Source of the DNA: Natrarchaeobius oligotrophus
GTDB lineage: Archaea > Halobacteriota > Halobacteria > Halobacteriales > Natrialbaceae
Direction: 5' to 3'
Length of the DNA stretch: 36,759 bases
Assembly (NCBI RefSeq): GCF_003841465.1
Contig: NZ_REFZ01000023.1
Span: forward strand, 1 to 36,759
Below, piece by piece: positions 18,281-33,864 of the stretch; the first letter of the stretch is position 1, and each line of letters starts with the position of its first letter. Both the position numbers and the translations under genes were made by a program. The notes under the pieces were generated by a model that had not been told where the DNA came from, did not search any database, and worked only from the letters and a program-made list of their open reading frames with translations.

Positions 18281-18365
18281 GCCGAGATAGCCTAGCCCGG
18301 CCAAGGCGGCAGATTCGAAATCTGCTGTCCTCACGGACTCGGGAGTTCAAATCTCCCTCTCGGCG
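18281..18365 (+). tRNA. tRNA-Ser (anticodon CGA)
   Basis: The sequence folds as a class II tRNA. The acceptor stem GCCGAGA pairs with TCTCGGC, discriminator G at 18365. The anticodon stem CAGAT/ATCTG closes the loop TTCGAAA with anticodon CGA, reading UCG. A long variable arm (GTCCTCACGGAC region) marks a serine tRNA. The T arm is GGGAG-TTCAAAT-CTCCC. CCA is not encoded. No intron is seen. The last 21 bp are the first unit of the downstream array. Confidence 0.95.
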
Positions 18366-18366
18366 C

Positions 18367-18419
18367 TTTTCACGACGACAATATTGGTGAGCGGAGCGAA
18401 CCATCTGTCGTCGTGAAAA
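18367..18419. repeat. 14-bp perfect palindrome with 25-bp loop (unit A)
   Basis: TTTTCACGACGACA at 18367-18380 is the exact reverse complement of 18406-18419. The loop contains GTGAGCGGAGCGAAC. It begins one base after the tRNA 3' end. Confidence 0.92.
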
Positions 18420-18480
18420 CGATACGGAGGAGTTTGAACGAGGCCAGGCGCGCGCAACGAAGTGAGCACGTCTGGACGTT

Positions 18481-18501
18481 GTTCAAATCTCCCTCTCGGC
18501 G
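18481..18501 (+). pseudogene. tRNA-Ser 3'-end copy 2
   Basis: These 21 bp are identical to 18345-18365 (T-loop, T-stem 3' strand and acceptor 3' strand). The T-stem 5' strand is missing, so no T arm can form locally. Confidence 0.9.
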
Positions 18502-18502
18502 T

Positions 18503-18563
18503 TTTCGCAGCACCAGCTCGATGAGCGACGCACAGCGGCGCGAATCACTCGGTTGCTGCGAAA
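18503..18563. repeat. 10-bp palindrome with long loop (unit B)
   Basis: TTTCGCAGCA at 18503-18512 is the exact reverse complement of 18554-18563. The second B unit keeps only the left arm (18789-18798). Confidence 0.85.
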
Positions 18564-18630
18564 CGACGCGGAGATTCGAATCAGGGAGGTCGGTCCTCGC
18601 GAACAGAGTGAGCGAGACCGTCCGACCGTG

Positions 18631-18651
18631 GTTCAAATCTCCCTCTCGGCG
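18631..18651 (+). pseudogene. tRNA-Ser 3'-end copy 3
   Basis: Identical 21-bp copy that opens the second 286-bp block. Confidence 0.9.
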
Positions 18652-18652
18652 C

Positions 18653-18705
18653 TTTTCACGACGACAATATTGGTGAGCGGAGCGAACCGTCTGTCGTCGT
18701 GAAAA
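18653..18705. repeat. 14-bp palindrome, second copy (unit A')
   Basis: This repeats the stem of 18367-18419 without change in the arms. Confidence 0.92.
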
Positions 18706-18766
18706 CGATACGGAGGAGTTTGAACGAGGCCAGGCGCGCGCAACGAAGTGAGCACGTCTGGACGTT

Positions 18767-18787
18767 GTTCAAATCTCCCTCTCGGCG
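18767..18787 (+). pseudogene. tRNA-Ser 3'-end copy 4
   Basis: Last identical 21-bp copy. Sequence beyond about 18831 no longer follows the repeat. Confidence 0.9.
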
Positions 18788-19011
18788 TTTTCGCAGCACT
18801 AGTTCGATGAGCGACACGTAGCGGCGCAACACTCTCGAGTGCGATTCGCCCGACGCTCGCGAGGACCTCGAGACCGCCATCGGCGGACGCGATGCGATCC
18901 CGTCACACGCAAGGCCGTTTCTTATTGACGCATCGGTGGACAGCACGAGGTGGTAGTAAATAGCATGAAGGTGGACGGTAGCCGTTCGGTTTCTCGAGGT
19001 GATGGTATTCG

Positions 19012-20376
19012 ATGAGTTCGGACGACTCCGGGGACGACGAAGCGTTTCACCCGCTCGGCCCGGAGGCGGAGGATCGATACGAGCAGTTGCTCGAGGAGGG
19101 CGATCACGACGCGGAACTCGGCATGGCGATGGCCAAAGACGCCATGCGGGTCACGAAAGGGGAGCTGTCGGACGAGGAGTTCTACGATCGCTATCACGAG
19201 GCGGTCGTCGAGGAGTTCGGCGAGGACGACCGCCCGATGGCCGACAGGATCGAGTCGGCCCGCGAGGAGGGTCGCCTCGAGGGGGCGCTCTCCCGGCTGG
19301 GCGTGGACGACGACGAGTCGCGACGCAACGTGATGAAGAAGATGGGCGCGGGTGCCGGCTTCCTCGGGATGGGTGCGTTCACCGCGACGAACGACGGCAA
19401 CGAGCCCGATCCGAGCGGTGCCGTCCAGGACGAAGAAAACGGCGACGACGTCCAGTGGGGAATGGCGCTCGACCTCGAGTCGTGCGACGGCTGTCTCTCC
19501 TGCGTCGTCGCCTGCAACGCCGAGCACAACTGGAACGAAGGGGCGAACTGGATGTACATCCTCGCCTACGACGACGGAACCGTCGAGTCGCCCGAACCGG
19601 AGGAAGCCGAGACGGTCCGCGATTTCAACTACCTGATTCGGCCCTGCCAGCACTGCACCGACGCACCCTGCGAGAAGGTGTGTCCGACGACGGCCCGCCA
19701 CACGAGAGAGGAGGGTGGGCTCGTCCTGACCGACTACGACGTCTGCATCGGCTGTCGGTACTGTCAGGTCGCCTGTCCCTACGGCGTCAACTACTTCCAG
19801 TGGAACGATCCGGACGTCCCCGCCGAGGATCTCGACGAGGACATGATGTACGATCAGCGAGATCGCTGGGTCAGCGGGCGCGGTCCCCGCGGCGTCATGG
19901 AAAAGTGCGTCTTCGACCCCGCCCGTCAGGACGGCCAGATGGGCGAGGAGATGGTCGGGACGACCGCCTGCGAGGACGCCTGTCCGCCCGGCGCGATTCA
20001 GTTCGGCGATATGAACGATCCCGACAGCGATCCCCGCCAGTACCTCGACAACGTGCCCCTGGCCCGCGCCAGGGAGCAAGACCCCGACGACGAGGAACTC
20101 CAGGAGGCGATCGCGGTCCTCGAGGAGGAGTCGGACGAGATGGACGAGGAGGAGGCCATGACGCTCATCGAGGCCGAGTTCGGCGACGAGGGCTCCCGGT
20201 TCAAGCTCTTAGAGGAGTACAACACCAACCCGAACGTCACGTACATCGGTAACGAGCCCGGCGCGAACGCCGAACAGGTCGAGGGTCCCGTCGCCTACGA
20301 GGACGTCGGAATGGTCGACAACCGAAAGACCGTTCTCGACGAGGAGACGGTCGGATTCGACGGCCTGTCGCTGTAG
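19012..20376 (+). CDS. Iron-sulfur electron-transfer subunit of a molybdoenzyme-type complex
   Basis: The 454-residue protein resembles the four-cluster ferredoxin subunits of DMSO/nitrate/polysulfide reductase complexes. An acidic helical domain (1-100) precedes a twin-arginine-like motif S103-RRNVMKK and a short hydrophobic stretch (111-125). Cluster ligands follow: Cys158/161/164/168, Cys212/215/220/224, Cys245/248/251/255, and Cys299/320/324. The usual second Cys of the last group is Asp302. A Glu/Asp-rich insert (about 335-395) follows. No catalytic molybdopterin subunit or NrfD-type anchor is beside it, so its complex is unknown. A GAGGTG site at 18994-18999 precedes the chosen ATG by 12 bp. 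Confidence 0.88.
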   Translation: MSSDDSGDDEAFHPLGPEAEDRYEQLLEEGDHDAELGMAMAKDAMRVTKGELSDEEFYDRYHEAVVEEFGEDDRPMADRIESAREEGRLEGALSRLGVDDDESRRNVMKKMGAGAGFLGMGAFTATNDGNEPDPSGAVQDEENGDDVQWGMALDLESCDGCLSCVVACNAEHNWNEGANWMYILAYDDGTVESPEPEEAETVRDFNYLIRPCQHCTDAPCEKVCPTTARHTREEGGLVLTDYDVCIGCRYCQVACPYGVNYFQWNDPDVPAEDLDEDMMYDQRDRWVSGRGPRGVMEKCVFDPARQDGQMGEEMVGTTACEDACPPGAIQFGDMNDPDSDPRQYLDNVPLARAREQDPDDEELQEAIAVLEEESDEMDEEEAMTLIEAEFGDEGSRFKLLEEYNTNPNVTYIGNEPGANAEQVEGPVAYEDVGMVDNRKTVLDEETVGFDGLSL

Positions 20377-33199: not shown

Positions 33200-33864
33200 A
33201 TCAGTTCGTCGTCGTTTTCGACCATGTAGAGCGTTCGCGCCGCGATGTTGACCGCGTGGTCGCCGACTCGTTCCAGATCGCGGATGGTCAACAGAAGCCG
33301 CGAGACGTCCTGTAACAGGTACTCGATCTCCTGCGGGGAGTCGAGTTCGCGTTCGATGAGGTCGCGAACGACGATCTCGCTCGCCCGCTCGGCGAAGTGG
33401 TCCAGATCGTCGTCCCGGTCGGCGAGTTCCCGGCAGGCGTCGACGTCTTCGGTGTTGTACGCGCCCATCGCGTCGTCGACCATCTCGAGCGTCAGCGATC
33501 CCATCTCCTGGACGTCGACGTCGGGGAAGAGATCGCGCTCGGCCTCGAGCGTGTACTCGCCGAGATTGACCGCCAGATCGCCGATGCGCTCCAAGTCGGT
33601 GATGATCTTGAACGAGGCGGCGATGAACCGCAGATCGCTGGCGACGGGCTGTTGCAGCGCGAGCAGTTCGACGCAGTCTTGCTCCAGACCGAGGTACATC
33701 TGATTGACTTCGCTGTCGCCCGTGATCACCTCGTGTGCCAGCTCCTCGTCTTTCTGCTCGAGCGCGTCGAGCCCCATGCGAAGCCGCTCGAGAACGACCT
33801 CGCTCATGTAGAGGACGTCCTCCCGGAGCTCCGCCAGCTTCTCCTGGTAGGATTTTCGAGCCAT
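33193..33864 (-). CDS. phoU: PhoU-domain phosphate signalling regulator
   Basis: The 223-residue protein consists of two PhoU three-helix bundles with metal-cluster motifs of the form E-x-x-x-D: KIITDLERIGDLAVNLGEY in the first and TIRDLERVGDHAVNIAART in the second. PhoU dampens phosphate uptake by talking to PstSCAB and its signalling partner. No pst gene is adjacent here. A TATA-like box (33889-33896) lies 27 bp before the ATG. Its 3' end overlaps the HalOD1 gene by 7 bp, so the two transcripts converge. Confidence 0.94.
   Translation of the reverse strand: MARKSYQEKLAELREDVLYMSEVVLERLRMGLDALEQKDEELAHEVITGDSEVNQMYLGLEQDCVELLALQQPVASDLRFIAASFKIITDLERIGDLAVNLGEYTLEAERDLFPDVDVQEMGSLTLEMVDDAMGAYNTEDVDACRELADRDDDLDHFAERASEIVVRDLIERELDSPQEIEYLLQDVSRLLLTIRDLERVGDHAVNIAARTLYMVENDDELIY

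Follow-up and report, generated by a model that had tools for sequence, protein, structure and literature searches.

The window analysed here, a stretch of 36,759 nucleotides from Natrarchaeobius oligotrophus (NZ_REFZ01000023.1), contains a tRNA-Ser(CGA) gene on the forward strand (predicted by ARAGORN; the RF00005 match spans 18281-18365), which is followed by a tandem array built on the 3' end of the tRNA. The terminal 21-mer of the tRNA, GTTCAAATCTCCCTCTCGGCG, was found by exact matching at the four positions listed in Table 1, as the original prediction had it, and at no other site on either strand of the whole window. The spacings of these tail copies are 136, 150 and 136 bp with a period of 286 bp, in agreement with the predicted alternation of units A and B, and the two A units (136 bp) are, as was also claimed, nearly identical, differing at 1 of 136 positions. 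The proposed ABAB order, however, does not extend to the end of the array. Comparison of the first B unit (150 bp) with the second in successive 25-bp blocks gave 0, 3, 8, 20, 16 and 16 differences. The second B is therefore not a full unit: past the last tail, hairpin 1 alone remains, which makes the order A-B-A-b. The gene on the 3' side of the array (19012-20376, forward strand) encodes a 4Fe-4S ferredoxin with a Ferredoxin_N domain, and tRNA-Ser(cga) lies upstream of the ferredoxin gene in 7 of 9 related loci.

Table 1 Features of the tRNA-Ser(CGA) array, with positions in the window.
Feature	Position	Strand	Basis
tRNA-Ser(CGA) gene; its 3' tail, 18345-18365, is tail copy 1	18281..18366	+	ARAGORN; RF00005
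Unit A, hairpin 1: arms TTTTCACGACGACA / TGTCGTCGTGAAAA; apex with tandem GA and C-GGA-G triloop	18367..18419	+	Fold
Unit A, hairpin 2: 5' arm is inverted T-loop copy (GGAGTTTGAACG); 3' arm is tail copy 2	18428..18493	+	Fold and arm statistics
Tail copy 2, identical 21 bp, T4C directly after	18481..18501	+	Exact match
Unit B, hairpin 1 (TTTCGCAGCA...TGCTGCGAAA)	18502..18564	+	Fold
Unit B, hairpin 2, with GGAGATTCGAATCA as 5' arm and tail copy 3 as 3' arm	18570..18644	+	Fold
Tail copy 3, identical 21 bp	18631..18651	+	Exact match
Second unit A, hairpin 1	18653..18705	+	Fold
Second unit A, hairpin 2, with tail copy 4 as 3' arm	18714..18779	+	Fold
Tail copy 4, identical 21 bp	18767..18787	+	Exact match
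Second unit B, truncated: degenerating hairpin 1 alone; no tail after	18788..18845	+	25-bp block comparison

Folding of array loci revealed, in unit after unit, the same anatomy, which the original prediction had missed: the tail, which starts at G53 in the T-loop and extends as far as the mature 3' end of the tRNA, is followed by hairpin 1, a short linker and hairpin 2. Hairpin 1 of the haloarchaeal units often starts with a T4C run, as does that of the first unit A in the window. Hairpin 2 has the next tail copy as its 3' arm; its 5' arm repeats the T-loop and part of the T-stem in inverted form (GGAGTTTGAAC ... GTTCAAATCTCC). The mean fold z-score of the haloarchaeal units was -4.9. Identity to the tail rises from 0.61 one base before G53 (a common G) to 0.98 at G53 itself; it stays between 0.88 and 1.00 from there to the mature 3' end and is about 0.5 past it. 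The inverted arm of hairpin 2 shows near-complete pairing with the T-loop, which fades across the T-stem. At T-stem offsets 9-12, the four positions that were unused in finding the arm, pairing was 0.56 with the own tail compared to 0.41 with swapped tails of other isotypes (maximum in 2000 draws, 0.50), both values being for three genomes pooled and the difference being weaker inside single genomes. This comparison was used instead of covariation counts on the Ser(cga) alignment, which were set aside because MAFFT had misregistered hairpin 1 in some rows. Where the T-loop of a tRNA is unusual, the hairpin-2 arm matches it, as with tRNA-Val (GGCGGGTTCGAAC), tRNA-His (GCGAGAATCGAA) and tRNA-Met (AGAGTTGA). 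Two lysine loci of the N. oligotrophus genome, tRNA-Lys(ctt) (L072) and tRNA-Lys(ttt) (L083), have an identical hairpin-2 core and unrelated hairpins 1, as if the two hairpins were exchanged or evolved separately.

In order to assess the spread of these repeats, all 44 tRNA genes of the N. oligotrophus genome were located and their downstream flanks were read for copies of the respective own tail, allowing up to 4 mismatches in 20 positions and a distance of up to 450 bp. Such copies were present downstream of 21 of the 44 tRNAs, with the first copy 102-213 bp on and, for tRNA-Asp, with three tail copies; the original prediction had not noticed this recurrence at other tRNA genes. The same search upstream and with the tail reversed gave 0/44 each, and the tail of another tRNA was found in 1 of 387 cases, which excludes chance as an explanation. 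Two distant haloarchaea had own-tail copies at 16 of 30 and 12 of 33 sampled tRNAs; the overall controls were 0 upstream, 0 reversed and 5/917 for swapped tails. In two methanogens, own-tail copies belonged to repeated tRNA genes or tRNA-like copies. A strict hairpin-2 pattern, GATTTGAA-N22..52-GTTCAAATC, matched in 30 of 33 haloarchaeal genomes (counting the own genome) and, outside the haloarchaea, in 5 of 164 genomes of the phylum, and its reversed form matched in none of the genomes of the same scan. The tRNA-Ser(cga) gene has own-tail copies in 22 of 29 other genomes; the same locus, with one or two copies, was found in Natrarchaeobius chitinivorans, Natrialba hulunbeirensis, N. chahannaoensis and Natronococcus pandeyae, and other genera have arrays of their own. 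An assembly artefact or a one-off duplication, which the original prediction had tied to an array unique to one assembly, can thus practically be dismissed, as the same locus and anatomy occur in many independent genomes, including single-contig ones.

All 20 hit loci checked, from three genomes, are situated at a tRNA gene or at the displaced 3' end of one. BLAST of the array gave a chance 25-bp match alone against phages and one weak match, in a Natrinema replicon, against plasmids. Among viral contigs, the hairpin-2 core motif had 16 matches, one of which is a real array (L290) that adjoins a tRNA-Glu. Rfam searches below threshold on the array loci yielded tRNA and chance matches and nothing else. 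A literature search found no paper describing tRNA-tail arrays in haloarchaea, which does not prove that none exists. The array is a real, clade-wide, structured and tRNA-bound repeat.

The hairpins are strongly biased towards one strand. On the tRNA-sense strand, G.T outnumbers A.C by 69 to 6 at interior arm positions, 2x2 internal loops are GA/GA in 145 cases, TC/TC in 1 and other in 26, and 78 of 214 loops are C-GNA-G triloops, where the opposite strand has 7 and dinucleotide shuffles give 1.3. Because units of one tRNA share descent across genomes, these counts do not represent independent events. The sense strand was the more stable one in 78 of 100 units. The bias of G.T pairs, GA loops, triloops and stability to the same strand indicates that structural selection acts on the tRNA-sense strand. 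The motif GA-NN-GNA-NN-GA (e.g. GAGCGAAGCGAG) is common to the hairpin apices and combines tandem GA mismatches with a C-GNA-G triloop; it is enriched downstream of tRNAs (14 sense and 4 antisense in the own genome) and absent upstream. The C-GNA-G triloop is a classic ultra-stable DNA mini-hairpin, cf. d(GCGAAGC). GNRA tetraloops, which are usual in RNA, numbered 0 versus 8.3 in shuffles.

The nearest known counterpart of the haloarchaeal units is the RtT repeat of E. coli (RF00391), whose units of 133-178 bp lie downstream of tRNA genes and each end in the 3' end of the own tRNA. At E. coli tyrTV, where the ncRNA rttR is annotated, the RtT match scores 133-138 bits, and in the fold the inverted tail GGGGAAGGAT pairs with the tail copy ATCCTTCCCC. 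Both systems thus have tandem units after a tRNA with its own 3' end in each, and in both the tail copy is paired with an inverted tail in a hairpin. They differ in that the copy in E. coli has its start further into the T-loop, takes in CCA and surrounds several hairpins, whereas the haloarchaeal units have tandem-GA/C-GNA-G apices and a separate hairpin 1; the carriers are few tRNAs in E. coli and about half of them in haloarchaea. The RF00391 covariance model gave no match up to E=5 in four haloarchaeal array loci. The units are therefore RtT-like by anatomy and not members of RF00391 by sequence. Among 38 tRNA genes checked in K-12, 7 are accompanied by own-tail copies other than whole tRNA genes (tyrT/tyrV, the four of argVYZQ, and lysV). 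At argVYZQ, own-tail copies and an inverted-tail hairpin are present and Rfam RtT has no match; at lysV, the match is 47.3 bits with a cut-off of 45. The Rfam RtT family as modelled looks too narrow.

We favour, with a probability of about one half, a reading of the array as a resident trailer on the 3' side of the tRNA gene, made of RtT-like units that fold as RNA and are linked to termination. The units would be co-transcribed with the tRNA by read-through and fold as RNA, and the T-runs after the tail copies may act as successive terminators. T4 occurs within 12 nt of 31% of the tRNA ends in arrays, 33% of the internal copies and 22% of the last copies, compared to a background of 1%, and the terminator of H. 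volcanii is a T-stretch plus C (PMC7237163). In hairpin 2, the tail copy might sequester the anti-T-loop strand, so that the trailer could not pair with the T-arm of the upstream tRNA; the need to keep the trailer off this T-arm would explain why the tail stays matched to its tRNA. Whole-unit differences in copy number, which we found between relatives, are as expected from recombination between tails. The role of RNA is suggested by the co-orientation with the tRNA, the T-runs and the E. coli parallel, and we infer it rather than read it from the hairpins, as GNA triloops would suit ssDNA at least as well. Further points count against a trailer: GNRA tetraloops are absent and the C-GNA-G triloop is of DNA type, about half of the tRNAs lack arrays, so that the module is dispensable, and most transcripts would end ahead of hairpin 2 at a T-run that directly follows the tRNA. 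Copying from mature tRNA by reverse transcription was ruled out, since no CCA follows the copies.

Among the explanations offered by the original prediction were stacked attachment sites, left by serial integration and excision of tyrosine-integrase elements at the tRNA gene. Archaeal att sites of this kind (SNJ2, SSV and pNOB8 types) share with the arrays a direct repeat of the tRNA 3' end downstream of the gene, and integrases are present in the genome. Real integrations look different, however. On contig C16 of the N. oligotrophus genome, an element of about 33 kb with an integrase extends from tRNA-Thr(ggt) (33213-33284, reverse strand) to an att copy near 531 (L143, L144); its att core begins in the anticodon arm and extends through the 3' end, and no hairpin 2 precedes the copy. 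At locus L113 (G055), tRNA-Gly(tcc) is followed by an AT-rich element of about 1.3 kb, a tRNA copy of about 45 bp and then the array, and the same order is seen at a displaced tRNA-Gly 3' end in L112 (G040); as the array is distal to the tRNA copy of the element, the arrays were there before the elements. The integrations at tRNA-Thr(ggt) and at the G055 tRNA-Gly thus duplicated about 45 bp from the anticodon arm onward, without hairpins, and have other att cores, whereas the arrays have no element between the tail copies, a sharp 21-bp block at G53 and conserved hairpins, and are themselves displaced by real integrations. Since more than 20 tRNAs would also each need an integrase of their own specificity leaving a uniform remnant of about 120 bp, we consider stacked att sites very improbable. 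Of the other two explanations put forward there, amplification of a tRNA-tail element is correct in outline, as the tails, the hairpins and the whole-unit copy changes are real, but neither a mobile enzyme nor movement from one site to another was observed; a platform retained for its function agrees with the conserved strand-specific structure as far as function goes, but nothing shows that anything lands there.

A neutral by-product appears doubtful. Here, template switching at tRNA genes would generate the succession of tail, inverted tail and tail, and recombination between short repeats would homogenise the tails without any function. Tandem-inversion duplications have alternating direct and inverted copies with palindromic junctions, which the alternation of tail (+), inverted tail (-) and tail (+) resembles; copy number varies between relatives, and A-B-A patterns arose more than once (in the own array, L007 and L020). 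Conversion tracts, however, would hardly leave tails that are 91% identical between genomes next to hairpin-1 arms of 41% identity, nor exact borders at G53 and the 3' end, and the strong one-strand bias with its wobble pairs and loops, as well as the occurrence in 30 of 33 haloarchaea and not in two methanogens, speaks against it as well. Alternatively, hairpin 2 could be folded DNA for a recombinase or transposase, with units being inserted or deleted at the T-loop as in integron attC sites or IS605/PATE elements. The confinement of C-GNA-G triloops and tandem GA loops to one strand, the unit borders at G53/T54 and the recurrence of identical hairpin-2 core types, e.g. CAGGGAG..CGACCGTGG, with different tRNAs and in distant genera would fit such a DNA element. 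Palindromic ssDNA elements (IS605-type, PATEs), which are likewise short, transposase-free and haloarchaeal, are common in Haloquadratum (PMC3119063), and we count this in its favour. We nevertheless regard it as unlikely: no enzyme is tied to the units, the folded strand follows the orientation of the tRNA gene, the counterpart in E. coli is annotated as an RNA, and the units, which carry the host tRNA tail, stay attached to tRNA genes or displaced tRNA ends, with no free or dispersed copies at a short target motif in the 20 loci of three genomes and with one real array among the viral contigs. Integron attC sites likewise form arrays of imperfect palindromes whose variable loops surround a conserved G-TT core, but the T-loop core GTTCRAA does not fit GTTRRRY of the RYYYAAC/GTTRRRY boxes, there are no cassette genes, and no IntI-like enzyme is tied to the arrays among the integrases listed in the genome. 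That the universal T-loop GTTCRA of tRNA genes is the core of a folded single-strand recombination site in haloarchaea, at which any tRNA gene could gain and lose hairpin cassettes with its tail always restored, with tRNA genes as heads of integron-like arrays, is improbable to us.

In haloarchaea, copies of a tRNA tail that lie downstream of the gene should not be taken for att sites. The RtT repeat was known as a curiosity of a few tRNA operons in E. coli, with no settled function; it now has a counterpart across the haloarchaeal clade, found at about half of the tRNA genes examined there. About 100 natural variants with a strict one-strand structural signature are available for study, and tractable hosts such as Haloferax and Natrinema allow asking what tRNA-tail repeats do.
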